IMG/VR virus record: IMGVR_UViG_3300034980_000132
Location: 1-64,000 of that record
Direction: 5' to 3' (one strand)
Length of the DNA: 64,000 nucleotides
Origin: a virus
Positions 6,042 through 25,887 of this stretch are shown here, piece after piece (positions within the stretch are counted from its first letter, which is position 1; each line of letters begins with the position of its first letter). The translations under genes were made by a program, and so were the position numbers. Below the pieces are notes generated by a model. That model saw only the letters and a program-made list of their open reading frames with translations. It searched no databases and was not told the DNA's origin.

Positions 6042-7556
6042 ATGCTTAATCACCTGATGTTAGACAAAGTGCTGTCGTTCGCAGCTCGGGGTTGGAAGAT
6101 CCTGCCGGTGTGGGGTCACGACGAAGGCAAGTGCCGCTGCAAGCGAGGGGCCGACTGTCCATCTCCAGGCAAGCACCCAATACAACACGACTGGCCGGGG
6201 CACGCCACCGACAGGGTGGACACCATCCGTTCGTGGTTTGACAAGTACGAGGGGTGCAACTGGGGTGTCAAGCTGGGGGAAGAGTCAGGTGTCATAGACG
6301 TAGAGTTCGATGACGCTGCTGGTCGGGCTGTGGCCGACAAGCTGTTCAAAGATGTTCACACCATGACGTACACGTCCGGTAGGTCGGACCACCGTTTCTT
6401 CAAGTGGCACCCGGACCTACCTCAGCAGGCTGTAATCAAGAAGCACGGGCTAGAGATACGGACAGGCGGTGGCAAGAAAGCTGCCATGAGCATCATACCT
6501 CCGAGCGTACACCCCAGCGGTGTGTCCTACCATGAGGTGCAGGGTTTTGGGGTCGCTGACGTGGGGGTGGTTGACTTGCCTGAGGTGTTCTGGAATCTCA
6601 TCAACAGCAGCGCCGACGACGAGTACGCCGTGGAGGAGGGCGTGGAGCCCAAGGACGAGATAGACGTGGACGCCGAGGTGACTACGGGTAACCGCAATGA
6701 CGAGATGCTGCGGTACGGGTGCTCTATGGCTAAGATGATGCGATCCGTCAGCAGCAGCAAGGAAAAAAAGCTGCTGATGGCATCCATGGCTGGACACAAC
6801 GTCAACAAGTTCAAGCCACCTCTTGACCAGCATGAGCTGGATCTGGTGTTTCAGAGCGTCCTGAAGTACAGCACACAGGACGACGTTGACGCTGCTAGCA
6901 AGAGGGCTGCGTACACTGAGCTGGGGCTGAAGGTAACGGACCAAGGGGAGTGGTTCCCAGGTACATGGCACCTGGACATCATCGAGTCTGACCCGGTCAC
7001 ATACAAGGTATGGGCTCCAGGCCTCAAGGAGGGGTACGTGGAGTTCGACAAGGACACGTTCTTCGACCACAACTCCGTGGCCAAGTACTTCAGTGAGGCA
7101 TCTGGGGGTAAGGTGGTTCTGAATGATGTTCCTACGGTGTTCAGGAATATATGGGAGGGCACCCCTCCCAGCAAGAACAACCCGTCGGGGTACACCGGCG
7201 TGCGGGGGAAGCTACAGCATGCTGCCAAGACGTACACGCCGCCCAAGGAGGAGACCCGGAAGTACCAGATATTGAGGGGCGTGGTAGAGGTGGTGACAGG
7301 CAGGGAGTTCACCGACGACTTCACGGACGAGAGGCAGACAGTGTACGACGTGGACGGCGTGATCTGGTTCAAGTTCTACCCACTTCTCGGCAAGATGCAA
7401 ATGGACGACAAGACCATCTCGAAGAACGAGCTGTCCCGAACCCTCGGTAAGCTGGGGATAAAGAGCAGCCAGCCCTATAGGGAAGGGATAAAATACAATC
7501 GCATGCACAGCATAAACGAGGACGCCATGCAGCGGCTGGTGGATGAGTGTAGTTAG
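6042..7556 (+). CDS. Primase-polymerase (prim-pol, AEP-like)
   Basis: A 504-residue protein. Residues 10-200 match the bifunctional prim-pol domain: GWKILPVWG, a CxC...C cluster (31-39) with PSPGKHP, NWGVKLGEESGVIDVEFD giving the catalytic Asp86/Glu88, and SIIPPSVHPSG (150-160) with the conserved His. Residues 215-300 form a helical PriCT-like linker, and the C-terminal 200 residues look like a winged-helix region. No helicase motifs are fused to it, so it probably works with the separate helicases at 3073 and 7784. GGAG precedes the ATG. Role: priming of phage DNA synthesis. Confidence 0.85.
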   Translation: MLNHLMLDKVLSFAARGWKILPVWGHDEGKCRCKRGADCPSPGKHPIQHDWPGHATDRVDTIRSWFDKYEGCNWGVKLGEESGVIDVEFDDAAGRAVADKLFKDVHTMTYTSGRSDHRFFKWHPDLPQQAVIKKHGLEIRTGGGKKAAMSIIPPSVHPSGVSYHEVQGFGVADVGVVDLPEVFWNLINSSADDEYAVEEGVEPKDEIDVDAEVTTGNRNDEMLRYGCSMAKMMRSVSSSKEKKLLMASMAGHNVNKFKPPLDQHELDLVFQSVLKYSTQDDVDAASKRAAYTELGLKVTDQGEWFPGTWHLDIIESDPVTYKVWAPGLKEGYVEFDKDTFFDHNSVAKYFSEASGGKVVLNDVPTVFRNIWEGTPPSKNNPSGYTGVRGKLQHAAKTYTPPKEETRKYQILRGVVEVVTGREFTDDFTDERQTVYDVDGVIWFKFYPLLGKMQMDDKTISKNELSRTLGKLGIKSSQPYREGIKYNRMHSINEDAMQRLVDECS

Positions 7557-7783
7557 ATCAGTAACTCGTATACTATAGGGCTGAAAACTTTTTCAATTGG
7601 GTCAATCTAGCCGAGTACGTGAGCAAACTAGATATAACCCCTGTGATAGTAACGAGTTACTGCACCGGAGGTAAGTGAGCAAAAAAAGTAAGACTCTCCC
7701 TGTAAGTTGTTGGTACGCCACAAGTTAAGTACTGCTCACTTAGAAAAAAAGTAAGTGAGACTAGGTGAGCAAAGGAGCCAAAC
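7557..7783 (+). repeat. Non-coding repeat cluster, candidate origin or control region
   Basis: 227 bp without a gene, between prim-pol and the UvrD-like helicase. GTGAGCAAA occurs at 7619-7627, 7675-7683 and 7765-7773, with an inverted TGCTCAC at 7733-7739. AAAAAAAGTAAG occurs at 7681-7692 and 7744-7755. AGTAACTCG at 7560-7568 has its inverse CGAGTTACT at 7653-7661. A TATACT box is at 7569-7574. The A/T-rich spacing between iteron-like repeats and the neighbouring primase and helicase genes suggest an origin of replication. Transcriptional control of the helicase is the alternative. Confidence 0.55.
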
Positions 7784-9430
7784 ATGATTATTGAGCGGAT
7801 GATTGGGGGAGCTGGGACAGGTAAGACGACCATGTTGATCAAAAAGCTGAACGAGGAGATCGCCGGTGGCGTGCCTCTCCCGGCCATCGGGTACATCAGT
7901 TTCACCAAGGCGGCACTCGAAGTCATCAAGAGCAGAAGCTCAGCCATCCAGACCAGCGGGGAGTACGACGGTTCCGAAGACAGCACACCCTGGTTCCGCA
8001 CGATCCACTCGGTGTGCTACAGGTGCCTCGAAATCGACAACCCCCGCATGCTAGGTAACACAAGGGCGGACAACGAGTGGGTCGAGAACGCAGTCGGAGA
8101 GCCCGTCAGGTTCAGTGGGTCGTACCAGGAGGGTGGGTCGCTGGTGTACACCGGGAGCACCGACGCTGCTGTGGCCCTCAACCTGTGGGGGTGTGCCCGC
8201 AACACCATGGAAACGCTAGCTGATTGCCACAGGAGACGGCAGCAGAGTGGCCAGGAGATGAGGTCGCTGACGTACATCCAGGAGATCGTGGGGCGGTACG
8301 AAGAGTGCAAGGCTGAGGACGGGAAAATCGACTTCACAGACCTCCTGAGCATGTTCGCGGGGTTTGAGTCGGATCTGAGCCACGGGGCCGTTAGGGTGGA
8401 CGCTGGGGGCCTTGTACCGGACGTGAGGGTGTGGTTCCACGACGAGTGTCAGGATGCCTCAAAGCTGTCCATGGAAGTCTTCAAACGCCTACTGACAGGG
8501 GCAAACGTGGAAAAAGCAGTGATGGCAGGCGACCCTTTCCAGAATATCTACGACTTCAGCGGGTCAGATCACAGAGTATTTACTGGACTTGAGGTAGGTA
8601 AAGAGAGTATAATGCCTAAATCGTTTAGATGTGGTGTAAACATCCTGAGATACGGCGAGAGTGTCTTAACCGGAAGCCCAGGCTATTTCAAACGGGGGAT
8701 CTCCCCGGCTGATCACAAAGGAATCATTACGAATGTCCATACCCTTCAAAGCGCCATCGAGTTCATCGACCCAAGAGAGGACTGGCTCATTCTCGCACGG
8801 ACCAACTCGCTTGTTCGGCGGATTCAGTCAGTGCTCAGCAAAAGCGGACTTGCGTGGAGTGATATACAGGGGCAAGGCCGAAGAGGTAAGCAAAGCCGAA
8901 GGATCGCAACTGCGTGCCTTGCACTACGTCAGCTGTGCGATGGCCGTTCAATTGATGGCAAGGGATGGAGAGCTATCACTCAGTCAGTGATGCCCTGCTG
9001 TCTGGCGGAGGGGACCAAGTCCCGGCACGCCAAGATAGACAGCGTGAAGGACCTTCCGTCGGTGGACGTAGCTGGCATAGGGTTCCTCGGGGCCAACGAC
9101 AAGCTGCTGGGGATGATCAAGAGCACCTACTGGGCCCAGGCTTTTGAGAAGGGCGAGGACAGAGACATGGCTCACTTCGTACGGCGGTGGGGGCCAGAGG
9201 CCGTTCTGCCACTTAGGATACGGGTCGGCACGATCCACTCGGTCAAGGGTGGTGAGGCAGACAACGTCATCCTGCTGGGGACCACCAACAGGATCATAGC
9301 AGAAGCCAGCGAGAGTACGGAGGGCCGCGGAGCAGAGCAGAGACTTGCGTACGTTGGGATAACCAGAGCTAAGAAACAACTGATTACAGTGCAGGAACTG
9401 AGAAAACCTTGTCTTCCGATGTTTGCTTAA
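7784..9430 (+). CDS. UvrD/Rep-like superfamily 1 DNA helicase
   Basis: A 548-residue SF1 helicase. Walker A GGAGTGKTT is at 8-16, motif Ia YISFTKAA at 38-45, motif II DECQD at 220-224, motif III AGDPFQNIYDF at about 248-258, motif V VGTIHSVKGGEAD at about 479-491, and motif VI AYVGITRAKKQ at about 522-532. It is about 100 residues shorter than host UvrD, consistent with compact phage Dda/UvrD-like enzymes. AGGAG lies 6 bases before the ATG. It should unwind duplex DNA during replication or recombination. The iteron-like cluster lies immediately upstream and a T-run terminator immediately downstream. Confidence 0.9.
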   Translation: MIIERMIGGAGTGKTTMLIKKLNEEIAGGVPLPAIGYISFTKAALEVIKSRSSAIQTSGEYDGSEDSTPWFRTIHSVCYRCLEIDNPRMLGNTRADNEWVENAVGEPVRFSGSYQEGGSLVYTGSTDAAVALNLWGCARNTMETLADCHRRRQQSGQEMRSLTYIQEIVGRYEECKAEDGKIDFTDLLSMFAGFESDLSHGAVRVDAGGLVPDVRVWFHDECQDASKLSMEVFKRLLTGANVEKAVMAGDPFQNIYDFSGSDHRVFTGLEVGKESIMPKSFRCGVNILRYGESVLTGSPGYFKRGISPADHKGIITNVHTLQSAIEFIDPREDWLILARTNSLVRRIQSVLSKSGLAWSDIQGQGRRGKQSRRIATACLALRQLCDGRSIDGKGWRAITQSVMPCCLAEGTKSRHAKIDSVKDLPSVDVAGIGFLGANDKLLGMIKSTYWAQAFEKGEDRDMAHFVRRWGPEAVLPLRIRVGTIHSVKGGEADNVILLGTTNRIIAEASESTEGRGAEQRLAYVGITRAKKQLITVQELRKPCLPMFA

Positions 9431-10585: not shown

Positions 10586-11503
10586 ATGAGGAAAATCTCG
10601 ACACTCGCACTCTTACTGTTGCTCGCCCCTGCCGTAGCCTTTGCCTCACTGGCCGAGGACCTCCAGGACGTGAGCGTCACCATCCGCACATCCCGTGGCC
10701 AAGGATCGGGCGTACTGATCACCAGAGAACTCCGGCTCAACGACGACACAGACGAAACTACTTCAGTGACCATGGTACTGACAGCGGCCCACGTTGTATC
10801 CAGCGCCAAGAGCACCCGGTCGTCCATCGTGGACGGCGAGAAGCGAACGATCACGGAGTTCGAGGAGATCGACGTGGTAAAGGAGCTTCGGCAGGACGGT
10901 CGCCGGGTTGGTGAGATCACCATGGCTGCCACGGTTGTGCGGTACTCCGACGCCCGTGAAGGCGACGACCTCGCGCTGCTGGTCCTCCGCAAGAGGGACT
11001 ACTCGGACTCCAGCGTGACGTTCTTCGCTGAAGATGACATCATCCCGGTGGGCACACACCTGTACCACGTTGGGAGCCTGCTCGGACAGTTCGGCAGTAA
11101 CTCCATGACCGACGGCCTGATGTCTCAGGTCGGTCGTACCCTGTCTGTCGGGAACGGCGCTGGCACCGTGTTTGATCAGGTGAGCTGCATCGCGTGGCCC
11201 GGATCGTCGGGCGGCGGTGTGTTCATTAGCGACCAACACAAAGACGAGAACATGCACGGTCGGTTGGTTGGTTTGCTTGTCAGGGGGGCTGGCAATGGTG
11301 GCGGGGGTTTTGCGTTTATTGTTCCGTCCCGTAGAATTCACACTTGGGCGGCTGCCTCCGACTGTGAGTGGCTGTTAGATCCTTCTATGGACCAGCCTTG
11401 CCTTGATGCTATTTACAAGGCTCCCATGGGTGGCGGGGACGACTCCGCAGGGTATTCAGACGAGGACCTCGAAGCACAGAACTTCATGCTCCTTGGTAAC
11501 TGA
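10586..11503 (+). CDS. Exported trypsin-like serine protease (S1, HtrA-like catalytic domain)
   Basis: A 305-residue protein with a clear Sec signal peptide (Lys/Arg, then a Leu/Ala core, cleavage near AFA at residue 20). The catalytic triad is visible: LTAAHVV with His69, EGDDLALL with Asp127 or 128, and WPGSSGGGVF with Ser208. No PDZ domain follows; the C-terminal 60 residues are acidic and low in structure. AAGGA precedes the ATG. Such a protease would act in the periplasm or outside the cell. For a phage it could help release, remove a receptor or blunt an envelope defence. A strong terminator follows, so it ends the transcript. Confidence 0.88.
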   Translation: MRKISTLALLLLLAPAVAFASLAEDLQDVSVTIRTSRGQGSGVLITRELRLNDDTDETTSVTMVLTAAHVVSSAKSTRSSIVDGEKRTITEFEEIDVVKELRQDGRRVGEITMAATVVRYSDAREGDDLALLVLRKRDYSDSSVTFFAEDDIIPVGTHLYHVGSLLGQFGSNSMTDGLMSQVGRTLSVGNGAGTVFDQVSCIAWPGSSGGGVFISDQHKDENMHGRLVGLLVRGAGNGGGGFAFIVPSRRIHTWAAASDCEWLLDPSMDQPCLDAIYKAPMGGGDDSAGYSDEDLEAQNFMLLGN

Positions 11504-13034: not shown

Positions 13035-13265
13035 GTGAGAAACATTATCGACTTGGTTGCTGGATTGCTGCTGGCTATTATCCCCGAGGGATACGCCACC
13101 AACTTGGTGTCGCTAGCGTCAATCGGCTTTGGTGTCAGCGGGCTGGTCCTGCACTACCTTGGCCAAGGGGGGCTCGACCCCGCCGCGGCTACCGCCCTCA
13201 TCCTGGCTGGACTCGGTGGTCTTGGCCTGCGTAGGGCAGTTGAGAGCAATGGACGAAGACGTTGA
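13035..13265 (+). CDS. 76-residue two-helix membrane protein
   Basis: GTG start with AAAGG upstream. Two hydrophobic helices (about residues 3-17 and 22-42) and a third Ala/Leu/Gly-rich segment (50-66), with a C-terminal Arg-rich tail. The size and topology would fit a holin-like or membrane-anchoring protein, but it sits between nucleotide-metabolism and polymerase genes rather than in a lysis cassette. Function unknown. Confidence 0.65.
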   Translation: MRNIIDLVAGLLLAIIPEGYATNLVSLASIGFGVSGLVLHYLGQGGLDPAAATALILAGLGGLGLRRAVESNGRRR

Positions 13266-13282
13266 CCACTGGAGTACACACC

Positions 13283-15547
13283 ATGCAGTTTCCCCCGATA
13301 AGCCTCAAGGGTAAGGAATACACGTTCACTCTGTGGAACGGTGAGGTACTTCCGGACAAGGTTCTGGCGTTGGATACCGAGACCGAGCTGATCCAAGAGG
13401 GGGTTACACCTCGGTTGGCTTTAGCGGCAGTGCATGGAAGCGCGGGGAGCTGCGTGGTTATTCATCCAGGTGACGTGTTTGACTTCGTGACCGAGCACCA
13501 AGACAGCACGTTTGTGTGCCACAACGCGGTGTTCGACTTCCACGTTATAGCACAGCACCTGGGTCACGGGGACGTAGTTCAATCGGATAGAGCATCGGCC
13601 TGTCGAGCCGAAAGTTGCGGGTTCGAGTCCCGTCGTCCTCGCTCTGTGTGGTGGGACAGGGCCAAGGAGGGCAGAATCCACTGCACCATGCTGTTCAACT
13701 CACTCATCGGGTTAGCCCGCAACGACGAGGACCCTATCAACAAGGGTCTCGGCATGCTGTCATCCAGGTGGTGCGGCGTGGACCTCAATAAGGACGACCC
13801 CTGGAGGCTGCGGTACGGGGAGCTGCTTGGATTAACCGTGGAGGAGTGGGAGGACGTGGACCCGGCAGCCTGGAGGTACGCACTGGCTGACCCCATAGCC
13901 ACGCTTATGCTGTACCAAGAGCAGGTCAAGGCAGCCAGCCGGATGGGACGCCGAGGGTTCGATGGATACCAGTTACCCAAGGCCGTAGAGCGGTTCGGGC
14001 TGCTGACGGTGGGCTTGCAAACGCAGGGTGCCATAGCCCTTGATGCGGTTAGCCGTAGGGGCGTGAGCATTGACTCTGAGTACGCCGAGCAGGTAAAGGA
14101 GGACATAGCTTCATTGGTGGCTGGCGAGGCGAGGTCCATGGAGGAGATGCTGGGCACCGAGGCCTTCCACCGAAACGCGGCTGGAGCCCTGAGCCTCACA
14201 CCCGCTGGTGCCCCACGCCGCAACGCCAAGCTGATCAAGGGCAGGCTGGCACACATAGCCGAGCACACTAGCCCACCCATCATACCGCCGATCAACAAGG
14301 ACGGGCTGGTCACCGATTCAGTGAAGTACTGGCAGGAGTACACCGACGCTGACCCGTTCGTGGAGACGTACGTCAACTTCATGTCGCAGACTAAACTGCT
14401 GCAATTCTTTAAGGCACTCAAGACCGACAGGATCTACCCGAGGTACCGACCGATGGTACGAACGGGACGCACCAGTTGCAGCAAGCCCAACCTACAGCAG
14501 CTGCCGCGGGACAGCAGGTTCCGAGAGATGATACTGCCGTCACCTGGGTGCTTGCTGTTGCAGGTGGACTACAGTGTGCTTGAGCTTCGGACGCTGGCAC
14601 AGGTGTGCATATCCAGGTTCGGGGAGAGTCGCATGGCTGAGCTGTTCAGAGAGGGCAAGGACCTTCACAGGTACACCGCAGCCACCATGTTAGGACTGAC
14701 CATGGGGGACTTCGGTCTGTTGGACAAGGGCGTGCAGAAAGAGCACAGGCAGCGGGCCAAGGCCCTGAACTTCGGCGTACCGGGTGGCCTGGGTGCCAAG
14801 AGCCTGTCGGAGTACGCCAAGACAGCGTTCGGGGTGACCATCGACCAGGACGACGCCAAGAAGCTACGCAACCAGCTGATCTACGGCACCTACCCTGAGC
14901 TTGGTCGGTACCTCAAGGGTGACAGCTGGGACAACCTAGCCGACAACCTGCACTGTTCGGTCGAAGAGGTGAACGAGAACCTGAGGGACTGGGACGCATG
15001 GATGGACGCTAACCGGATCGTGGCTGGCCAACCTGCCAACCGCAAGGACAAGCCGTACCACCCAGCCGAGAGGGATCGTCTGTGGAAGGCGCTGTCCAAG
15101 ATGAACGACAACCCACAGCTGATCGACATACTGTCGCAGCGGCAGACCGGCATGCACGCCCTGCGTAAGATATTCTTCGGTCACACCCGCACGTTGACGG
15201 GTCGAATACGTGGGCACGTCAGCTACACCCGCCAGAAGAACAGCCCGTTCCAGGGGCTGGCAGCCGACGGCAACAAGCTGGCTCTGTTCAACCTAGTGCA
15301 TGCAGGGTACGACGTTTGCGGGTTCGTGCATGACGAGGCCCTCATCAACATCCCCGAGGACTGCGACCTGACCGCAGCGGTAGAGGATGTCCAGCGGATC
15401 ATGCGAGAGTCCATGGAGGTGTTCACACCAGACGTCCCCATCGAGACATCCGGCCTGCTGGCTGACCGCTGGTACAAAGACGTAGACGCTAACGAGTACG
15501 ACGACCAAGGCAACATAATTCCATTCTCCAAGGGAGTGCTGACATGA
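13283..15547 (+). CDS. Family A DNA polymerase with 3'-5' exonuclease domain
   Basis: A 754-residue PolA-type enzyme. Exonuclease motifs: LALDTETE (Asp31, Glu33), HNAVFDF (81-85) and RYALADP (Tyr-x3-Asp). Polymerase motif A QVDYSVLELR (about 428), motif B RAKALNFGVPGG (about 490-500), motif C VHDE (about 682). All catalytic residues are present. The ATG at 13283 has GGAG 8 bases ahead; an upstream TTG at 13262 lacks support. Residues 96-120, between ExoII and the WWDRAKEGRIH strand, are encoded by an intact tRNA-Asp gene (13568-13641). Removing 75 bases would leave a family-like join, so this is an in-frame insertion. The stop overlaps the subtilase ATG. Confidence 0.92.
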   Translation: MQFPPISLKGKEYTFTLWNGEVLPDKVLALDTETELIQEGVTPRLALAAVHGSAGSCVVIHPGDVFDFVTEHQDSTFVCHNAVFDFHVIAQHLGHGDVVQSDRASACRAESCGFESRRPRSVWWDRAKEGRIHCTMLFNSLIGLARNDEDPINKGLGMLSSRWCGVDLNKDDPWRLRYGELLGLTVEEWEDVDPAAWRYALADPIATLMLYQEQVKAASRMGRRGFDGYQLPKAVERFGLLTVGLQTQGAIALDAVSRRGVSIDSEYAEQVKEDIASLVAGEARSMEEMLGTEAFHRNAAGALSLTPAGAPRRNAKLIKGRLAHIAEHTSPPIIPPINKDGLVTDSVKYWQEYTDADPFVETYVNFMSQTKLLQFFKALKTDRIYPRYRPMVRTGRTSCSKPNLQQLPRDSRFREMILPSPGCLLLQVDYSVLELRTLAQVCISRFGESRMAELFREGKDLHRYTAATMLGLTMGDFGLLDKGVQKEHRQRAKALNFGVPGGLGAKSLSEYAKTAFGVTIDQDDAKKLRNQLIYGTYPELGRYLKGDSWDNLADNLHCSVEEVNENLRDWDAWMDANRIVAGQPANRKDKPYHPAERDRLWKALSKMNDNPQLIDILSQRQTGMHALRKIFFGHTRTLTGRIRGHVSYTRQKNSPFQGLAADGNKLALFNLVHAGYDVCGFVHDEALINIPEDCDLTAAVEDVQRIMRESMEVFTPDVPIETSGLLADRWYKDVDANEYDDQGNIIPFSKGVLT
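13568..13641 (+). tRNA. tRNA-Asp (GTC anticodon) embedded in the DNA polymerase gene
   Basis: 74 bases folding as a complete cloverleaf. The acceptor GGGGACG (13568-13574) pairs with CGTCCTC (13634-13640), with one G-T pair and discriminator G13641. The D stem GTTC pairs with GAGC. The anticodon stem TCGGC pairs with GCCGA around loop CTGTCGA, anticodon GTC at 13602-13604. The T stem GCGGG pairs with CCCGT around TTCGAGT. No CCA is encoded. It lies on the coding strand and begins exactly on a polymerase codon boundary, with no stop codon in the polymerase frame. Confidence 0.9.
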
Positions 15548-16593
15548 GCGATTTCCAGCTGCCACCCATCACGATCCACGAACGACACGCTGCGGGTGTG
15601 CTCAGCCAAGCCGACCCGTACTGGACGTCAGACTACGGCATCCGGGAGGTACACGAGAAAGGTGTCACCGGACAGAACGTGAGGGTGGGAATCATAGACA
15701 CAGGGATTGACGAACTACACTCTAAGCAGGACGGACAGCTGCACCACGCCATGGTCAAGGCTAAGGACTTCACCAACTCACGGCACGGTTACTGGGACAC
15801 ACACGGACATGGCACACACGTCGCCGGTGTCGTGGCCGCACAGAACCACAGCATCGCCAACGGGGTCGGCCTGTACATAGCCAAGGGGCTAGGGGACGAC
15901 GGGTCAGGCTCCAACTACTCCATCGCCAACGCCATAAACTGGCTGGTGGACGAAGAGGTGGACGTCATCAACATGAGCCTGGGGTCCAGCCGACGGAGCC
16001 GGATCATAGGCGAGGCTATCGAGCGGGCGGCACTAAAGGGCATCATCACCTTGGCAGCTGCGGGCAACGACTCCGGAGTCATAGGCTGGCCAGCCATGGA
16101 GAACTCAGCGTTCAGCGTGGGTGCCATCAACAAAAACAAGGACCTCGCTGGGTTCTCGAACTTCGGCCCCAACCTGGACGGCGTGAGCCCTGGTGTACGG
16201 ATACGAAGCCTGTACTCCAATGGAGGGTACGCGGTACTGAGCGGCACCAGCATGGCCACCCCGTGGATGACAGGGATGGTGGCACTACGCATCGAAGCGG
16301 AACGCCAAGCTGAGGTACAGATTGTGGACACGGTCCACGCGCTACGGTCACACCTACAGGTAACCGCGGAGGACCTGGGTCCTGCGGGCCGCGACCCCAG
16401 GTATGGGTACGGAGTCCCAGACACTAACCGATTTCTGCACACAGAAGAACACTCGGAGGAAATACCCGATGAAGACAAAGACGAGAACCGGCAGAGTGTT
16501 GACCTCATGGGCTTCAGTTTTGCTAGCCCTCCTGACGTGGGGCACGATCTGTCAGTCAAGCTCCCGCGGGGCAACTCCCTGGGAGGCAGTTGA
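15544..16593 (+). CDS. Subtilisin-like serine protease (S8)
   Basis: A 349-residue subtilase with the full triad: VGIIDTGID (Asp52), HGHGTHVAG (His89) and LSGTSMATP (Ser236), plus AAAGND for the oxyanion Asn. There is no signal peptide and no long propeptide (only about 45 residues before the Asp motif), so it may act in the cytoplasm or in the virion. The start overlaps the polymerase stop (ATGA). Its last 125 bases also encode the N-terminus of the next gene in another frame; the terminal 40 residues are acidic and low in structure, consistent with overprinting. Confidence 0.9.
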   Translation: MSDFQLPPITIHERHAAGVLSQADPYWTSDYGIREVHEKGVTGQNVRVGIIDTGIDELHSKQDGQLHHAMVKAKDFTNSRHGYWDTHGHGTHVAGVVAAQNHSIANGVGLYIAKGLGDDGSGSNYSIANAINWLVDEEVDVINMSLGSSRRSRIIGEAIERAALKGIITLAAAGNDSGVIGWPAMENSAFSVGAINKNKDLAGFSNFGPNLDGVSPGVRIRSLYSNGGYAVLSGTSMATPWMTGMVALRIEAERQAEVQIVDTVHALRSHLQVTAEDLGPAGRDPRYGYGVPDTNRFLHTEEHSEEIPDEDKDENRQSVDLMGFSFASPPDVGHDLSVKLPRGNSLGGS

Positions 16594-18196
16594 CCAAGCG
16601 TTAGCTGACCTCGGAGCCACGGACCCTGCCACCACCCGGTGGGTATGGGTCAAGAGCCCCGACATCGTACCGGATCTTAGGGTGGCCATCAACTTCGGTG
16701 CCAACCGCGGGGTCACGCTGACCGACGTCATCATGGTGGACGAGCAGCTGGCTCGGGTGGACTTCCTCAGGCTGGCCGACAACGAGAACGACGTGCGGGA
16801 CCTGCTGGATGCGTGGGAGTTACTCGTCAACGACGAACCGTACTTCTTATCGAACGACGTGGTCACCGAGGAGACCAAGGTCAAGGTGCCAGTGGAACCG
16901 TACACCGCACGCGACGGTGAGGAGTACGACTTCCGGTGGGAGCGTACCACCAAGACCCTTCGACCCTTCGGCCCGCACGTCAACGAGCAGGCAGTTGAGC
17001 TGCAAGCACAGACTGGTTCGGCGGTCCCCATTGTGGAGGCCCGCTTCCTGATTCACCACTTACTAGCTAACGAAGGCGGAGGACTGTACTATGAATTCCA
17101 AGGGATCAAAGAGTCTAATAACGAGAAACAAGATGATCTTACTTTTTTTCTTGCTTCTTACGGCCTCGATCTTAGCGTTGTCGAACTACTTAGGTCCGAT
17201 CAGAAATGGGCCACTCTTAGATCAGGAATCACCGGCAGGCCGCGTGCCGTACTCATCGTACCGCATCTCCGGTCCCGCCCTACGGTAAACCAGGGGAACG
17301 TGTACATCACCCTCGACTCATTCTACGGTGACAAGGCAGCCGAGCTGCACCCCATACTCAACCTTGTGGAGTCCAGGTACCGAGCCATCGAGCTGATCGC
17401 TGAGGAACCGTCGGGGCTCCTTCGGTTCGCACTGTTCGGTGGCAACGCTGACGAGAACGGGGACCTACTGGAGGCCAACGAGCAGCACAAGCTACAGCGG
17501 TCTGCTCCCAGGTTCGTGGTCACCGACACCACCGTACCGCCGCCACACCCCGCTATCCTTGAGCCAGCCATCAGCTGCATCAGGTGCCACGCTACCGGCG
17601 AGGGCTGGCGTGAGCTAGACGACACCTACTCTGTCACCCGGCTGCTACGGTCCAGGGTGGACGTGTTTGGGGACCAGGACGACGGGTTCCCAGACTTCGA
17701 GACCATCAACCGGGTCGCTGGCCTGTACACCGGGGACTTCGACAAGCTGCTGGACCGTGCCCGTGAGGACCTCGGTGGCTCGATGGCCATGCTGCACCCC
17801 AAGCCCATACTACTGGGAGACGGAACGCCCGTGCCCGTGGAGTCCGGTTCCATACTAGACGGTGACGCCACCAGCCAAGCGTGGGATTCCGTGGGTCAGG
17901 CCCACCGGGAGTACTGGTACGCCATGGTGGACATCCCAGAGATAGCCGCCGACATGGGGTATGTGGCCAAGGATGACCTGGAGGCCAGGGGTTTCCTAAT
18001 CTCCAACCTCCGGCCCCTGCCCCCAGATCAGTTTGGAATCCGGCCAGAGGACCCAAGAATTGCTGCAATTTTAGACGGGACCCCTATAAACAGGCTGGAT
18101 TACGAGGCTGTGTTCCTGGACGTGGCACACCGGATACGGTATAATGTGGGATTAGGCATGGTATCCACCGAAGAGGTGACCGACCCCCCACAATGA
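16469..18196 (+). CDS. Exported monoheme c-type cytochrome-like protein
   Basis: A 575-residue protein starting MKTKTRTGR, with a Sec signal peptide (hydrophobic WASVLLALLTW core). One heme-binding CIRCH motif is at residues 370-374, followed by about 200 residues; PPP and Pro-rich stretches flank the heme site. The rest is a large domain of unknown fold. The start at 16469 was chosen because GGAGGA lies 8 bases upstream and the signal peptide begins there; an in-frame ATG at 16403 would add a polar extension. The c-type heme is attached outside the cytoplasm by host Ccm/Ccs machinery. It overlaps the subtilase and is co-directional with the next cytochrome. Electron carrier, decoy or sensor are all possible. 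Confidence 0.75.
   Translation: MKTKTRTGRVLTSWASVLLALLTWGTICQSSSRGATPWEAVDQALADLGATDPATTRWVWVKSPDIVPDLRVAINFGANRGVTLTDVIMVDEQLARVDFLRLADNENDVRDLLDAWELLVNDEPYFLSNDVVTEETKVKVPVEPYTARDGEEYDFRWERTTKTLRPFGPHVNEQAVELQAQTGSAVPIVEARFLIHHLLANEGGGLYYEFQGIKESNNEKQDDLTFFLASYGLDLSVVELLRSDQKWATLRSGITGRPRAVLIVPHLRSRPTVNQGNVYITLDSFYGDKAAELHPILNLVESRYRAIELIAEEPSGLLRFALFGGNADENGDLLEANEQHKLQRSAPRFVVTDTTVPPPHPAILEPAISCIRCHATGEGWRELDDTYSVTRLLRSRVDVFGDQDDGFPDFETINRVAGLYTGDFDKLLDRAREDLGGSMAMLHPKPILLGDGTPVPVESGSILDGDATSQAWDSVGQAHREYWYAMVDIPEIAADMGYVAKDDLEARGFLISNLRPLPPDQFGIRPEDPRIAAILDGTPINRLDYEAVFLDVAHRIRYNVGLGMVSTEEVTDPPQ
17091..17288 (+). CDS. Possible overprinted signal-anchor peptide inside the cytochrome gene
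   Basis: A 65-residue ORF in another frame within the 16469 gene. It has GGAGGA 7 bases before its ATG. Its N-terminus is basic (SKGSKSLITRNK), followed by a strongly hydrophobic run (MILLFFLLLTASILAL), then a polar Pro-rich tail. In this stretch the cytochrome frame loses its usual G/C-ending codons, which suggests selection on the second frame. It could encode a small membrane peptide, in the manner of nested spanin genes, or be chance. Confidence 0.35.
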   Translation: MNSKGSKSLITRNKMILLFFLLLTASILALSNYLGPIRNGPLLDQESPAGRVPYSSYRISGPALR

Positions 18197-18210
18197 CCAA
18201 GAGGTGCGAC

Positions 18211-19146
18211 ATGATCAAGTGGCTACAGTATCTGTGTTTTGTTGGTTTCTTCCTCTTTTTTACCAGTGGTGCAACAGCTGGGCCCGTTTCAAATGCCGGT
18301 TACGAGCTGGGTCCCGACGGGCTGTGGTACCGCGGTGGTATCGGGTACGAGCGTTACTTGAGCACAGCGGTGGACGAGTTTGGCGAAGAGTACGCCGCGT
18401 GGCGTTACCGTGGAGTCGCTGAGTCTATCACCGCTAACACACCGGACTGGCGTGCCAAGCTGCTGGAGATTGTCGAGCGAGACCGGCTGGAGGCCGCACG
18501 CATCGAGCGAGAGCAGGCAGAGGCCACAGCTTTCCAGCGAGCCCTTGAGCTACTGCAACCGCAGGCCTACTCCGACGGGTACGGCCAGGGGCAGGGCGGT
18601 TACGGTCTCGGAGGGTACGGTGACGGAGGTTACGGCGGGTACGTCCCCAACGCTGACCAGGGCACAACGGTGTTTGGGTACAGCGGCAACAGCTACTCGA
18701 TGATCGCTCAGCTGTACGACCGCAACGTGCCACTGGTGCTGGCGCACTCACTGGCCGCTGCACAATCGCGTAGCGACAAGCTGTCGTCCAAGCTGGCAGA
18801 CAAGCAGTCTAGTCTGCTGGACAACTACGCCGAGATACTCAGGATTATTGCGGGAGATGCCCCGGCCACGGACCCGGTACCTGAGCAGCCTCCACGGCAG
18901 ACACCCCAGGACGACCAGCTCACCGCCCTGGAGGTAATCAGCAGCAGGTGTGCCGAGTGCCACAACGCTGCCAAGAGATCCGGCAAGGGTTCGGATCTGT
19001 TCCCCGACGGGCTAGACTTGACCAAGTGGGCGGACTACACGCTAGACGAGCGTGCGTTCGTTAGAGACGTTGTTGACTCGGGGCGTATGCCACCGGGCCA
19101 TGATCCCCTCACCGAGGCCGAAAGACTGGCCTTCCACTTACCATAA
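18211..19146 (+). CDS. Exported c-type cytochrome (CAECH ... MPPG)
   Basis: A 311-residue protein with a signal peptide (KWLQYLCFVGFFLFFTSGATAG). Residues about 116-150 are Gly/Tyr-rich (repeats of GGYG). The C-terminal 70 residues form a classical small cytochrome c domain: ISSRCAECHNA with heme motif Cys247-Cys250-His251 and GRMPPG with the likely axial Met293, then LTEAERLAFHL. Planctomycete cytochrome domains look the same. The ATG at 18211 has AGAGGTG ahead; an ATG at 18193 overlaps the previous stop but lacks an RBS. It is co-transcribed with the larger cytochrome-like protein and may be its redox partner. Confidence 0.82.
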   Translation: MIKWLQYLCFVGFFLFFTSGATAGPVSNAGYELGPDGLWYRGGIGYERYLSTAVDEFGEEYAAWRYRGVAESITANTPDWRAKLLEIVERDRLEAARIEREQAEATAFQRALELLQPQAYSDGYGQGQGGYGLGGYGDGGYGGYVPNADQGTTVFGYSGNSYSMIAQLYDRNVPLVLAHSLAAAQSRSDKLSSKLADKQSSLLDNYAEILRIIAGDAPATDPVPEQPPRQTPQDDQLTALEVISSRCAECHNAAKRSGKGSDLFPDGLDLTKWADYTLDERAFVRDVVDSGRMPPGHDPLTEAERLAFHLP

Positions 19147-19156
19147 GGTACAGAAC

Positions 19157-19528
19157 ATGAAGTACATCGTGACCTCCCTCGTACTGTTTGTGGCGCTGTT
19201 GTTTGCCGACTCGGCACACGCCACCAATTTCTTTCGCGGCAACCGAGGATTCAACCGCGGCTTCAACGTACAGCTCGGGCTGTTCGGCTTCCAGAACCGA
19301 CAGCGGTTCCAGTCGTTCGTCAACCGCAACGGCGACATCGTGACCGTCAACCAGTTTGGAAACGTGGTAGACATCCAACGAAGGTTCAACCGGTTTGACA
19401 GGTTCAACAATTTCAATCGGTTCAACAACTTCAACCGAAACTTCAACAACAACCGATTCAACCGTTTCAACAACTTCAATCGTGGACGGTTCATCAGAAT
19501 TAACGGAGTGTTAGTACGCATCCGATGA
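19157..19528 (+). CDS. Exported Asn/Phe/Arg-repeat protein
   Basis: A 123-residue protein with a Sec signal peptide (cleavage near SAHA, residue 22). The mature part is extremely biased: many copies of short units such as FNRFNNFNR (about residues 75-115), and almost no acidic residues. AAGG lies upstream. It follows the second cytochrome by 10 bases and its stop overlaps the next ATG. The basic, aromatic repeats could bind polyanions, cell-wall polymer or heme proteins. No homologous family recognised. Confidence 0.75.
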   Translation: MKYIVTSLVLFVALLFADSAHATNFFRGNRGFNRGFNVQLGLFGFQNRQRFQSFVNRNGDIVTVNQFGNVVDIQRRFNRFDRFNNFNRFNNFNRNFNNNRFNRFNNFNRGRFIRINGVLVRIR

Positions 19529-20032: not shown

Positions 20033-20135
20033 TCTTGACCCTCCTTTTTATCTTGAAGATGCGAGTCCAGCCCTCCTTGTACTTTTTTGGGTTCGACCTG
20101 TTACGGTCTCCCTTTCCGTTCTGTATCTCAGACAT
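20016..20135 (-). CDS. 39-residue GKGDRNR mini-protein
   Basis: A very short basic protein beginning MSEIQNGKGDRNRSNPKKY and continuing with EGWTRIFK and a Lys/Arg tail. The GKGDxxR...Y..GW..IF pattern recurs in many tiny phage proteins of unknown role, which supports this as a real gene. The ATG overlaps the end of the saccharopine-dehydrogenase-like gene by 8 bases, and its 3' end holds the RBS of the next gene. Confidence 0.7.
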   Translation of the reverse strand: MSEIQNGKGDRNRSNPKKYKEGWTRIFKIKRRVKNAKKK

Positions 20136-21234
20136 CGCTGGTCCCCCTGTTGAATTCTACGCCGAACCTGTTGCCCAGGAACTCCGGCAGGTGCATGTAT
20201 TCCTGCTTCATGAACCCCCGCCCCGGCAGCTTGCCAGTGACGTGCAGGTCCAGGGCAGTACACACACCAGCCGCGGTGGTTACTTGGATGGCACTCCACT
20301 CGGTGCCCTCCAGGATCACGGAGTGCAGGGTCCTGGAGAAACTACGCTGCACATACTGATTGTTCAACCACCCCGTGGCGGTCACAAACACCACCACCAC
20401 GTCCTGCGTGGTGACAGGCACGGACTCCTCCAGGATCGCCTTTAGCAGGACCCTCTTCTCCCTGAGCCGAAGGTCGTTGATCAGGAACGACGCAAGGTCG
20501 CGGTGACCAGGGAACCTTATCGTCTTGTAGTTCAGCTCCCGCACGGCACCGTCCAGTGAGTCGCACAACGTCCCCAGGCCACCCGACGTGTTAAAGGCTT
20601 CGTACTCAACACCCTCCAGGCTGAACCTTTCCAGGCCTTCCAGGGGCAGCACATGGCTGTACACTCCGGCGTGTATGGCCTCGCACGGGTTGCAGTACTC
20701 ATTGATCAACCCGTCGGTGGACCACGTTAGGTTGTACTTCAGTGCGTTACACGGGTACTGAGGCAGGGCACCCACCCGCATGTGCAGGGTGTCCACCGTG
20801 TCGAACTCATTGACTAGGTGTCTGGCTGCCACCGCTATAAACCCTGGGGCCAGCCCGCACTGAGGCATCAGGATCTGCCCCACGTTGGCGTCCTTCGCTA
20901 TGTCCTGCACGATCTTGGTGGTGTCGTTGTCCTCGGTCAGGTCGAAGTAATTGAGCCCAGACTTGACGGCACATTCCGCAATCAGTGGATTGAAGTGGTA
21001 CGTCAGTGCTGAGATCACGCTGTCTCTACCTCTCATGTCGTACATCAGCTGTGACTCGTCGGTCACGTCTATCTGGATTGCCTCGACGTTGGCGAGCCCT
21101 TGCAGGCGTGCCAGAGCCTTCACGTTGTTGTCACCCACCAGCACGTCGTAATCCCCCGTGGACTCCAGCATGGTGGCTATCATCCGACCAACGTGACCAG
21201 CTCCCAGCAGCAGTACTCGGTGCTTGTTACTCAT
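20128..21234 (-). CDS. Saccharopine dehydrogenase/LysDH-like oxidoreductase
   Basis: A 368-residue enzyme. N-terminal Rossmann fold: VLLLGAGHVGRMIA (7-20) as the GxGxxG dinucleotide site and DVLVGDNN for the second strand. The middle has PQCGLAPGF (about 124-132), a hallmark of the saccharopine dehydrogenase/LYS9/L-lysine dehydrogenase family. The family reduces or oxidises amino-acid imines with NAD(P); some members are carboxynorspermidine synthases. GGAGGAAC lies before the ATG. It is a metabolic gene inside a phage operon and may serve lysine or polyamine metabolism, for example making polyamines for DNA packing. The exact substrate is uncertain. Confidence 0.82.
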   Translation of the reverse strand: MSNKHRVLLLGAGHVGRMIATMLESTGDYDVLVGDNNVKALARLQGLANVEAIQIDVTDESQLMYDMRGRDSVISALTYHFNPLIAECAVKSGLNYFDLTEDNDTTKIVQDIAKDANVGQILMPQCGLAPGFIAVAARHLVNEFDTVDTLHMRVGALPQYPCNALKYNLTWSTDGLINEYCNPCEAIHAGVYSHVLPLEGLERFSLEGVEYEAFNTSGGLGTLCDSLDGAVRELNYKTIRFPGHRDLASFLINDLRLREKRVLLKAILEESVPVTTQDVVVVFVTATGWLNNQYVQRSFSRTLHSVILEGTEWSAIQVTTAAGVCTALDLHVTGKLPGRGFMKQEYMHLPEFLGNRFGVEFNRGTSDV

Positions 21235-22407: not shown

Positions 22408-22757
22408 GATACTTTCCTCGCTATCAGGTCAAGGTTATGGTGGTCAGTTAGCCAATGGTCGGCAGCCTGCTGGTGCAGGCCGAACATCCTGCCGCACAGG
22501 GTACACATCACCCGCATGCGTGAGTCGCACAGTAGTGTGTACCAGGGGTTCCTGGTGTGCTGGCACAGGCCCAGCTCTTTGGCTTCCTCGAAACGGTCGA
22601 GTGCGGCCATCCAACGAGCCCTCGGTCCCATGACAGGAGAGTAGGAAATGGCCTCGTCCCAGTCTGAACGCTCCAGGGCGTCCAGCACACCGTCCTTCCG
22701 ATCCTTCGGATGCGGCCACTTTCCCTTGCGACGGGGGTAGTCACCTAGTTTTTTCAT
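22404..22757 (-). CDS. 117-residue protein with C2H2-like zinc finger
   Basis: Begins MKKLGDYPRRKGKWPHP in an ATGA overlap with the VWA gene. The C-terminal third has CTLCGRMF...HWLTDHH, spaced like a C2H2 finger (two Cys 3 apart, His pair about 15 residues later). The middle is helical and acidic/aromatic. Coupled translation with the VWA protein suggests a shared task, perhaps nucleic-acid or partner recognition. Confidence 0.65.
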   Translation of the reverse strand: MKKLGDYPRRKGKWPHPKDRKDGVLDALERSDWDEAISYSPVMGPRARWMAALDRFEEAKELGLCQHTRNPWYTLLCDSRMRVMCTLCGRMFGLHQQAADHWLTDHHNLDLIARKVS

Positions 22758-23977
22758 GTGTTTTCCCTCATGTCTATCACCCTCCCGAACGGTGCGTTGG
22801 TGCTCCCGTCCGACAACCACAGCACGGGGTACGTCGGTTTCTTGGTGGGGAACTCAGTGTACAGGTCGGTGAAGCACACCAGGAACTCCAGCCCGCCCGG
22901 CATGTGCTTGTCCAGCCAACCGAAAACGCACTGGTGCGACGTCCCGCCACCACCGTGCGGCTCCATCTTCAGCGGCCCGTCCATGGGGGACCAGTGCTGC
23001 ACCCTGGTCACCCTGGTGTCGTGGTACAGGATGGTCACCTGTGCGTTTGGCCATGCCTCCATGATCGACTGCACCTGCCCGCAGAACTTCTTGAGCAGGT
23101 CCCTGTTGATGGAGCCAGAGCAGTCCACCGCGATCACGCAATCCTTAATCTCTTCGCTGTACAGCCCAGGCAGGTACGTCCCGCTCCATGCGTGCCGCCG
23201 GTCGAACCGCTGCCAGCTGTACTCACCGCTGCCCACCGCTGCCACCGTGAAGTCCGCCAGCTCTTCCTGCCAGCTTACGTCGTTGCGTGGTAGGATGTCC
23301 TCTAGCAGCAGGTCCAGGTCCCCACCAGCGGCACCACGACCGACCGCGTGAGCTGCCATGGCTGCCTCTGTGGACCAGTCCACCGGGTCGGCACTAGCAC
23401 CTACCACCTCGGCCTCGCCGTCCTCGCCACCTGCTCCAGCACCAGCACCACCAGACTGCGGGTCACCGTCCTGAGGCTCGGCCTCGAAGGTCCCCCACAT
23501 CATCTCGTCGGGCTCGGGTATGGGGCAGTCGTCCACCAGCATGTTGTAGTACTCGTATGTGGTGAGACCTACCGGGAACTTCTCGAAGGGCTCCACGCCC
23601 GGCATCAATAGCCCGCTGGGAAACTCGAACCCCAGCTTCGACAGCTCGTAGTTAATGTGCAGGTCCCCCGCCACGTTCCACAGGAACGGCCTGCGGTTAC
23701 CGATGTGCTTTACATGCCCCCGCACGCAGTGCCAGACCTCGTGAGCCAGCACACCACGCAGCTGTGCGTCTGTGAGCGTAGCCATGAAGTCTGGGTCGAA
23801 CCGTATCCACCGCCCGTTGGTACAGGCCGTACCGCACGGCGTGATCTGAATGCCGAGCTTCATCACCAGAGCCCCAAAGAAACGGGTGTTGATGTCGTCA
23901 ATCACCAGGAACTGGGTGCGGGCTCGGGTAATGCGGTCCATCGGCGTGATGGTCATGCGTTCGGTCGCCGTCTTCAT
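22754..23977 (-). CDS. VWA domain protein with HExxH metallopeptidase-like domain (DUF2201 type)
   Basis: A 407-residue two-domain protein. Residues 65-110 contain LRGVLAHEVWHCVRGH, an HExxH zinc site (His79, Glu80, His83). Residues 160-225 are a Gly/Ala/acid-rich linker. Residues 278-400 form a von Willebrand A domain with the MIDAS motif DCSGS (285-289) and a Thr/Asp-bearing GGGGTSH loop. This order is that of DUF2201 proteins, which partner MoxR-type ATPases. The MoxR gene lies two genes upstream in the same operon. Such pairs act as chaperone or remodelling machines, for example in metal-enzyme assembly or stress defence; the phage role is unknown. Confidence 0.85.
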   Translation of the reverse strand: MKTATERMTITPMDRITRARTQFLVIDDINTRFFGALVMKLGIQITPCGTACTNGRWIRFDPDFMATLTDAQLRGVLAHEVWHCVRGHVKHIGNRRPFLWNVAGDLHINYELSKLGFEFPSGLLMPGVEPFEKFPVGLTTYEYYNMLVDDCPIPEPDEMMWGTFEAEPQDGDPQSGGAGAGAGGEDGEAEVVGASADPVDWSTEAAMAAHAVGRGAAGGDLDLLLEDILPRNDVSWQEELADFTVAAVGSGEYSWQRFDRRHAWSGTYLPGLYSEEIKDCVIAVDCSGSINRDLLKKFCGQVQSIMEAWPNAQVTILYHDTRVTRVQHWSPMDGPLKMEPHGGGGTSHQCVFGWLDKHMPGGLEFLVCFTDLYTEFPTKKPTYPVLWLSDGSTNAPFGRVIDMRENT

Positions 23978-24783
23978 GCCGACACCCCCACTGCGAGTGC
24001 TAGGAACATCTCGTGGTTCTCCAGCTTGGTGATCGAGTCACTGAGCCCTTCGAGTGCGTCGTTGAGTACCGGCTGGTACAGTGCCAGCTGCTTACGCATG
24101 GCCGTGATACGCTCCATGCGGTTCGACAGAGCCCGGTCACCCATGTCAGGGTCCCCCAGGTCCTCTGTGATGGCGTTCACCTCCGCCAGCACCTGACGTT
24201 CGAGTGCGTCACGGACAGCCGTCACGGACTCGCTGGTGACCCTCACCTCGGCCTCAGCGACCTGTGTGTGACCAGCCTGACGAAACACATCGCGGATCTT
24301 GCCAAACTCTTCGAGCTTGTCCACCGGGATGAAGTAAACCGCACCACGGTCACGCAGGGAGATCCCGCCCATGTGTGCGATCACCTTAACGAACGCAGCG
24401 GACATCTGGCTGCCTGTCAGCCACCCGTATTCGTCCTGGTACTGAGACTCCAGCTCAGTCGCCAGCTCCCAGTCGTTGGGCCAGCACTCGATTCTACCGT
24501 CAGGCCTGATCGCTGCGGACAGCACCCTGTGGTACTGATTCCCGTGCTCACTGGTCCCGACTCCCTCACGAACAACCTCTACACCGTCGAGTGTAGGCCG
24601 AACCAGATCCCGTGGGTAGTTGGCCTCCAGCACAAACTTCAGCAGGGCCTCCGGCGTGCGGTGGTTGGGTGTCAGCCACCCGTACCCTAGGTCCGACAGC
24701 ATAGGCTGCAACGTGGTCCTGAGAGTGCGTCCACCGGTGGACCACACAACTGCACCACCTACGTCGATGTGATTGTTAGACAT
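23974..24783 (-). CDS. Partner protein of the MoxR/VWA pair
   Basis: A 269-residue protein starting MSNNHIDVGGAVVW, with AAGGGAG upstream. It is encoded between, and coupled to, the AAA+ and VWA genes. Residues 1-160 are mixed alpha/beta with Trp-rich patches (ECWPNDWELATEL), and residues 165-260 form a long helical coiled-coil region (VRDALERQVLAEVNAITED). I do not recognise the family with certainty. The conserved position suggests a structural bridge or substrate adaptor. Confidence 0.72.
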   Translation of the reverse strand: MSNNHIDVGGAVVWSTGGRTLRTTLQPMLSDLGYGWLTPNHRTPEALLKFVLEANYPRDLVRPTLDGVEVVREGVGTSEHGNQYHRVLSAAIRPDGRIECWPNDWELATELESQYQDEYGWLTGSQMSAAFVKVIAHMGGISLRDRGAVYFIPVDKLEEFGKIRDVFRQAGHTQVAEAEVRVTSESVTAVRDALERQVLAEVNAITEDLGDPDMGDRALSNRMERITAMRKQLALYQPVLNDALEGLSDSITKLENHEMFLALAVGVSA

Positions 24784-24807
24784 AAAAAAGCTCCCTTTCA
24801 AACGGAA

Positions 24808-25887
24808 TTAGTTAGACAAAACGAACTTGGAATTCTCTCGGGACCACTCAAGCACCTCTGGGTCTGTGGTCATGATCTTGGCGACCGTCATCTTGTCGGT
24901 GCTCTGCATGAGGTCACGGAAAAACGTGATCGAGGGCTCAGTCTTCATCCTGCTAGCCAGTCGGCAGCAGTCTGCCACCCTGCCACCGTCGTTGTCCATG
25001 TGTGCCGCTCGGCTCTTGGACAACAGGGTCATCGCATAAGCGTACTGCAAGCTGGGCTCCTCCGGTGGCAGCACCCCGTCCATTCGAGCTAGGTCAGCGT
25101 CAACGTCAGGCAGCCTGTCGTAGTACTTAAGGTAGGCCACGAAGTCCAGTGCCACGCCAGCACCGATGCAACCACCGAGTACCTCCTGGTACAGGTCCTC
25201 GGACAGCCCCGAGTCGAGGATGTCCCCCGCGAAATCCCAGGTCCTGGGGCAGGCGTACGGGTGGCCGTCAGCCTGCTGCTCGTCGGTCGGGTCGAACGTG
25301 TTGAGGTGGTCTGGCCGATTCTTTATGTACCCACGAACCCGGTCGGACACCTTGCCGTTGGACCACTCCAACCAATCGTCGGGGTTGCACTCAAGTGTCA
25401 CGCTTGTCACGAACCGACTCACCAGCGGGCTGATGAGCTTCTGTGCTCCAGCCCTGTCGTGTGTGCGGTTACCCGCCCCGATCTTACGGGCACCTGCTGG
25501 CAACGTGTACTGCCCCAGCTTGCCGTCCAGCAGCAGCTGCAACGCAGCACCCTGGACCATCGCGGGAGCCTGTGACAGCTCATCGAAGAACACCACCCCC
25601 TGCCAGTCAGGGTCGTGAGGCAGCAGGTCAGTGATCGCCCGAGCCATGCGTGCGGTGCTCTTGCCGGGCTCCCCGTCGTACACCGGGAAGGGCAGGCCCC
25701 CCAGGTCCACGGCGTCGAGCTGCCCGAGCCTGATGTCGGCAACATCTAGCCCGGCAGCCTTGGCACGGTCCTGTATAATCTGGCTCTTGCCCACGCCGGG
25801 CTGGGCCTTGACGTACATGGCCTTGGTCCTCAATTTCGGGTCGCTCAAGAACTGATCGACCAGTGAGGCAAACTGTGGCGTACGCAT
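24808..25887 (-). CDS. MoxR-type AAA+ ATPase
   Basis: A 359-residue AAA+ protein: Walker A AQPGVGKSQ (28-36), Walker B VVFFDELSQA (98-107; Asp102, Glu103), sensor-1-like GAGNRTHDRAG (about 138) and a helical lid. These are the features of MoxR/dynein-related ATPases that operate with VWA proteins. AGGAG lies before the ATG. It is the first gene of the operon controlled by the bipartite promoter at 25936-25968. Likely role: ATP-driven remodelling of a target bound by the VWA partner. Confidence 0.87.
   Translation of the reverse strand: MRTPQFASLVDQFLSDPKLRTKAMYVKAQPGVGKSQIIQDRAKAAGLDVADIRLGQLDAVDLGGLPFPVYDGEPGKSTARMARAITDLLPHDPDWQGVVFFDELSQAPAMVQGAALQLLLDGKLGQYTLPAGARKIGAGNRTHDRAGAQKLISPLVSRFVTSVTLECNPDDWLEWSNGKVSDRVRGYIKNRPDHLNTFDPTDEQQADGHPYACPRTWDFAGDILDSGLSEDLYQEVLGGCIGAGVALDFVAYLKYYDRLPDVDADLARMDGVLPPEEPSLQYAYAMTLLSKSRAAHMDNDGGRVADCCRLASRMKTEPSITFFRDLMQSTDKMTVAKIMTTDPEVLEWSRENSKFVLSN

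Follow-up and report, generated by a model that had tools for sequence, protein, structure and literature searches.

A putative host-envelope cassette of exported heme-motif proteins in phages and prophages of Planctomycetota

The analyzed DNA (the window) comprises positions 1 to 64,000 of a 66,976-base IMG/VR virus record (IMGVR_UViG_3300034980_000132), which carries terminase, portal-like (head-tail/portal-like) and major head genes. Downstream of the DNA polymerase A gene, four genes form one colinear series on the plus strand: an S8 subtilase (P1, 15544 to 16593; PF00082, E = 9.6e-47, catalytic Asp, His and Ser motifs present), two proteins with a single CxxCH motif each (P2, 16469 to 18196, and P3, starting at 18211 and ending at 19146) and a small Asn/Phe/Arg-rich protein (P4, 19157 to 19528). 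The start of P2 is preceded by GGAGGAA, and the gene overlaps the end of the subtilase gene by 125 bases. Export-type N termini were found in P2, P3, and P4 and no signal peptide in P1, as judged from a rough test of hydrophobicity and cleavage site, not from SignalP. The motif CxxCH occurs in just 4 of the 199 frames of at least 100 amino acids in the window. The preliminary description of a phage operon with two exported single-CxxCH proteins and a small exported protein was confirmed, with the genes as placed. Upstream of the series, the same phage encodes an exported trypsin-like protease (10586 to 11503), for which no homolog was found in the other loci carrying these genes. Within the DNA polymerase frame (13262 to 15547), ARAGORN called a tRNA-Asp (gtc) at 13568 to 13642 that is read through in frame; the call reflects a tRNA gene inserted or embedded there, or chance.

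The heme-attachment motif of P2, CIRCH, spans residues 370 to 374 (17576 to 17590, plus strand). P2 has cysteines at residues 28, 370, and 373, the heme pair being the sole ones beyond the signal region, and a CxxCH arose by chance in 15 of 100,000 shuffles of the protein. No match to P2, to a cytochrome or otherwise, was obtained in Pfam and other profile libraries. Single-sequence searches (viral contigs, phages, and plasmids, and a P2 fragment against genomes) returned nothing, a method that the profiles showed to be too insensitive, and the best planctomycete match obtained in this way (L204) was due to chance. The profile of a bacterial chromosomal diheme family placed P2 at the top of 702 sequences, all others being decoys. 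With hhalign, this family aligned to residues 157 to 553 of P2 alone (probability 95.9, E = 5.4e-9), and the family alignment (A1) matched that of P2 and its viral relatives (A6) with E = 2.8e-36. A leave-one-out viral HMM built without the window recovered P2 with E = 4.1e-93. By these comparisons, P2 is a diverged member of the unnamed diheme family. The two are colinear over about 400 columns and have in common the CxxCH as well as positions of conserved Tyr, Ser-Gly-Val-type, Arg, and Glu residues, whereas NGISCMxCH of the family (signature NG[IL]SCMxCH) is replaced by AISCIRCH in P2. C370, C373, and H374 are invariant in the viral alignment A6 and in the chromosomal family.

Among the residues capable of binding iron, only the CxxCH histidine is invariant in the P2 alignment, and no distal His or Met is conserved. 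Tyr207 is kept in every sequence that has a residue in that column, and the corresponding Tyr does not vary among 24 chromosomal members. The heme site of P2 would accordingly be a candidate for an open or labile one. The predicted model of P2 (mean pLDDT 63, pTM 0.65) gave no significant match in a fold search against the PDB.

P3 consists of a Gly/Tyr-rich region, a helical middle domain with the motif QGxTVxGY, and a C-terminal PSCyt1-like heme domain. Its CAECH motif (residues 247 to 251; 18949 to 18963, plus strand) is invariant in the P3 alignment A7, its cysteines are at residues 9, 247, and 250, with only the heme pair beyond the signal region, and 27 of 100,000 shuffles of P3 produced a CxxCH. 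The downstream MPPG that had been pointed out earlier was located at residues 293 to 296 (19087 to 19098, plus strand) and includes the candidate distal ligand Met293; Met is retained in 7 of 8 viral relatives, and in the P3-like protein of virus L235, KCPP replaces RMP. The match of P3 to PF13442 (CBB3 cytochrome) was subthreshold (E = 3e-4; 21.4 bits, with the cut-off at 27). P3 itself had no match to PF07635 (PSCyt1), and its relatives from L234 (26.8 bits) and L239 (25 bits) exceeded the curated cut-off of 22. In both P3 and PSCyt1, the CxxCH is followed by MP; P3 differs from the Pfam domain in being shortened at the C-terminal helix and in its long N-terminal region with the QGxTVxGY domain. 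A profile made without the window had the P3 middle domain as its top match in the window (E = 0.005). Single-sequence searches of viral contigs and phages, again too insensitive, found nothing for P3. Its predicted model (pLDDT 70, pTM 0.33) contains a helical domain, and the best Foldseek match, cd1 nitrite reductase, had an E value of 2.1, so no PDB match was significant. The evidence is weakly favorable to a cytochrome fold around the CxxCH of P3, which looks like a His/Met electron-transfer heme domain. The original proposal of exported phage redox proteins is partly supported: the exported heme-motif operon stands, comparison with cytochrome c families yielded the subthreshold PF13442 match for P3, and P2 was not matched to any classical cytochrome c.

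Members of the chromosomal family were gathered by a scan for the motif NGxSCMxCH, so that the collection reflects one DNA pattern and a phylogenetically uneven sample. The loci belong to Planctomycetota, Poribacteria, Verrucomicrobiota, Alphaproteobacteria, and Myxococcota. No Pfam model covers the family, no solved relative was detected from sequence, and the NCBIfam matches were stray ones. In each of the 76 members whose upstream sequence was long enough, a second CxxCH domain, of PSCyt1 type, is fused at the N terminus; the multiheme proteins L144 and L172, which the pattern also picked up, are outside this count. This domain is absent from P2, and a homologous one is encoded by the next gene, P3: its C terminus aligned with the fused N-terminal heme domains with E = 2.3e-7, and with E = 3.3e-10 when viral relatives were included. 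Both heme motifs thus reside in one chain in the bacterial family and in two adjacent genes in the phage, and P2 together with P3 corresponds, as judged by homology, to the chromosomal diheme protein carried as two genes. Chromosomal diheme genes adjoin exported caspase-domain proteases in 27 of the 106 sampled loci and S8 proteases in 10, nearly all of the latter in Hyphomicrobiales; others have OmpA-like or unnamed exported partners. In many planctomycete loci (within L083 to L187), the diheme gene is followed by an unnamed exported-type gene without a Pfam match, represented by the L123 neighbor, and all 26 matches to this gene lie on the strand of the diheme gene.

Relatives uncovered by alignment-led scans reside in L222, L228, and ten other loci. 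Nine distinct viruses have a P2-like gene followed, on the same strand, by a P3-like gene: the window, L228, L234, L235, L236, L238, L239, L240, and L266. The largest of the eight further viruses is the 595-kb uncultured phage LR756511.1 (L266). Identity to P2 by alignment is 28 to 34% in the viral P2-like proteins and 17% in L228, whose P2-like protein also retains an N-terminal domain that contains the variant motif CTGSCH. In L236 and L240, other genes separate the P2-like from the P3-like gene. The phrog_2 terminase large subunit was identified in the window's record, G359, G360, G364, and G365 to G367 and was not found in G358 and G361 to G363; G358, which contains L228, encodes RecT-like and exonuclease VIII genes. 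In L228, an amidase-like gene lies immediately 3', and the stretch 5' of the P2-like gene (7333 to 8903) contains a YceI-like gene and a gene for an exported protein in which SCISCH precedes a barrel-like region. The P2-like protein of L235 (5159 to 7000) has a twin-arginine-type start (NRRSFLITG), which would be odd if heme is added after export.

A homolog of P1 is located immediately 5' of the P2-like gene in one other virus (L234) and in eight planctomycete loci (L264, L278, L281, L282, L284, L286, L287, and L288), the subtilases of L234 and L264 having been located by tblastn. Because of this recurrent position, the upstream S8 subtilase belongs, on the evidence of gene order, to the cassette. 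In L236, a subtilase lies about 7 kb downstream, and none is present in the examined flanks of L235, L239, L240, and L266. P1 gave only partial matches of at most 26 bits to IetS in PADLOC, and 14.5 bits against a cut-off of 900 for NCBIfam IteS. The likeness to the IetS subtilase of IetAS is the S8 domain; IetAS has an ATPase partner, whereas the neighbors of P1 are the DNA polymerase and P2. P4 was unnamed in every library searched. Small exported genes occupy the P4 position in viruses L235, L236, L239, L240, and L266 and in prophages L280 and L284, and the L266 protein also has an FNRF...VRIR ending; the likeness of P4 to these counterparts is weak and of low complexity. A single P4 search match was weak and interrupted by stops and was rejected. 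At 79 viral loci that carry a related polymerase, the examined flanks contained neither P1 to P4 nor other exported CxxCH frames, so the cassette does not track the polymerase.

Within one planctomycete class, 17 of 338 genomes gave hits to the viral profile at E = 1e-25 or better, compared to none of 284 Myxococcota genomes. Terminase and portal genes lie beside the P2-like gene in 8 of 12 planctomycete loci (L264, L280, L281, L282, L284, L285, L286, and L287). In L278 and L288, the sequence ends near the P2-like gene, and L279 and L283, in which no terminase was matched, may lie on the chromosome or in a different type of prophage. P3-like genes with a CxxCH and a later MP were present in L279, L280, L283, L284, L285, and L286, and none was seen in prophages L264, L281, L282, and L287. 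Given the relatives of the cassette in planctomycete loci, the host of the window phage is probably a member of Planctomycetota. In a tree of 45 sequences, made by a quick method without bootstrap, 18 sequences from viruses and planctomycete loci were separated from the 27 others by a branch with SH-aLRT 100; L228 was omitted from this tree because of its long branch in an earlier one. The Poribacteria prophage L222 (IMGVR_UViG_2740892559_000001) falls on the side of the 27, nested with Poribacteria, and on that placement is a separate, recent gain. There, a fused diheme-LRR protein of 1426 amino acids is encoded between tape-measure-like and tail-like genes. The search of related phages for the same operon, suggested at the outset, thus revealed P2-like and P3-like genes in eight further viruses and in prophages. 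Judged from gene content and tree position, the cassette is conserved among many unrelated planctomycete phages and prophages and is dedicated to such elements, which is more important than the initial idea of exported redox proteins.

P1 to P4 may form a cassette that planctomycete phages carry as cargo destined for the host envelope. This reading draws on the homology of P2, the fused chromosomal domains, the nine viruses, the linkage to terminase and portal, the tree branch, the subtilase, the ligand conservation, and the protease neighbors. The identity of the proteins and of the cassette is highly probable, the proposed function is tentative, and both taken together are about evenly balanced between right and wrong. 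P2 and P3 would be the two heme modules of the bacterial diheme family, each on a gene of its own; the host would export both, and its maturation proteins would attach the heme outside the cytoplasm. P3 would act as a His/Met electron-transfer module, and P2 would bind a heme whose distal site is open or labile and perform ligand sensing or the redox step. P4 would be their partner in the envelope. The subtilase would be a partner inherited together with them that works in the cytoplasm or once the cell has lysed. The net effect may be an altered envelope of the infected or lysogenized cell. We infer heme loading, all function and also the joint working of P2 and P3, the last from the fusion in the chromosomal family. 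Because P2 to P4 are exported and P1 lacks a signal peptide, a direct contact between protease and cytochromes would be left unexplained. Also counting against this reading are the two structure models, of low to middling confidence and with no significant PDB match, the viruses with no subtilase in the examined flanks, and the four prophages in which no P3-like gene was seen.

Alternatively, P2 and P3 could be energy auxiliary genes that enter electron transport in the host envelope and sustain respiration during replication. Export, the CxxCH motifs, the PSCyt1-like His/Met domain of P3, and the position downstream of the DNA polymerase in the window are compatible with such a role, and phage contigs with SoxD, a c-type cytochrome, offer a precedent (Kieft et al. 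2021, PMC8190135). SoxD is likewise a c-type cytochrome on a phage genome; it is the sulfur-oxidation partner of SoxC, whereas P2 and P3 are of a different family, and no sox gene was recognized here. No other respiratory gene was recognized near the cassette, and neither P2 nor P3 showed homology to a known respiratory component in Pfam, NCBIfam, and PDB. Moreover, the P2 heme has no conserved distal ligand, the chromosomal relatives adjoin proteases and not respiratory genes, and prophage copies adjoin packaging genes, which makes the auxiliary role unlikely, though it is the best of the alternatives. The chromosomal protease neighbors and the viral subtilase favor sensing or regulated proteolysis over respiration, with the reservation that the sample is uneven and P1 lacks a signal peptide. 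Host control or exclusion via redox or ligand sensing would therefore be more likely than bulk respiration. In its most specific form, which is possible but somewhat unlikely, the protease and split-diheme module would let planctomycete phages and prophages sense or control the host envelope, e.g., for the exclusion of rival phages, and would be derived from or parallel to bacterial loci in which an exported diheme protein is joined by caspase-like or subtilisin-like proteases.

The split proteins could instead be decoys that mimic and jam a caspase- or subtilase-linked diheme system of the host. The exported caspase-like proteases beside chromosomal homologs and the split, strongly diverged state of the phage copies would fit. 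Nevertheless, the chromosomal loci are not known as defense systems, none of the PADLOC models covers P2, P3, or the chromosomal diheme protein, and the cassette supplies its own protease, so this counter-defense is improbable. It is more improbable still that the CxxCH motifs are not heme sites and that P2 to P4 are exported for a structural or lysis-related role; P2 lacks a cytochrome fold match and L228 has an amidase-like gene immediately 3', but the C, C, and H are invariant in viral and chromosomal relatives and P3 relatives exceed the PSCyt1 cut-off. Assembled host DNA or contamination, conceivable since related genes are known on bacterial chromosomes, was excluded for practical purposes by the phage genes in the record, the colinearity of the genes with DNA polymerase in one series, the recurrence of their order in independent viral contigs and next to prophage terminases, and the separate branch of mobile-element copies, and the block is genuinely phage, as initially assumed.

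The locus exposes a heme-protein family without a Pfam name or characterization, one lineage of which is dedicated to phages and prophages, and ties diheme proteins to proteases on chromosomes and in viruses. It would provide a compact, testable cassette for phage action on the envelope of Planctomycetota, the phages of which are little studied. The earlier remark that phage-encoded exported cytochrome-like proteins are rarely reported was supported. Cytochromes are absent from the main text of a paper on huge phages (PMC7162821), and no published report of the diheme family or of the cassette was found in a search that covered few subscription papers and preprints.

Shortly past the cassette, a saccharopine-dehydrogenase-like gene is encoded on the minus strand (20128 to 21234). 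Farther on, at 22754 to 25887 on the minus strand, a DUF2201 metallopeptidase/VWA-like gene adjoins a MoxR-like AAA gene, a pair reminiscent of vWA-MoxR conflict systems (PMC7159879).
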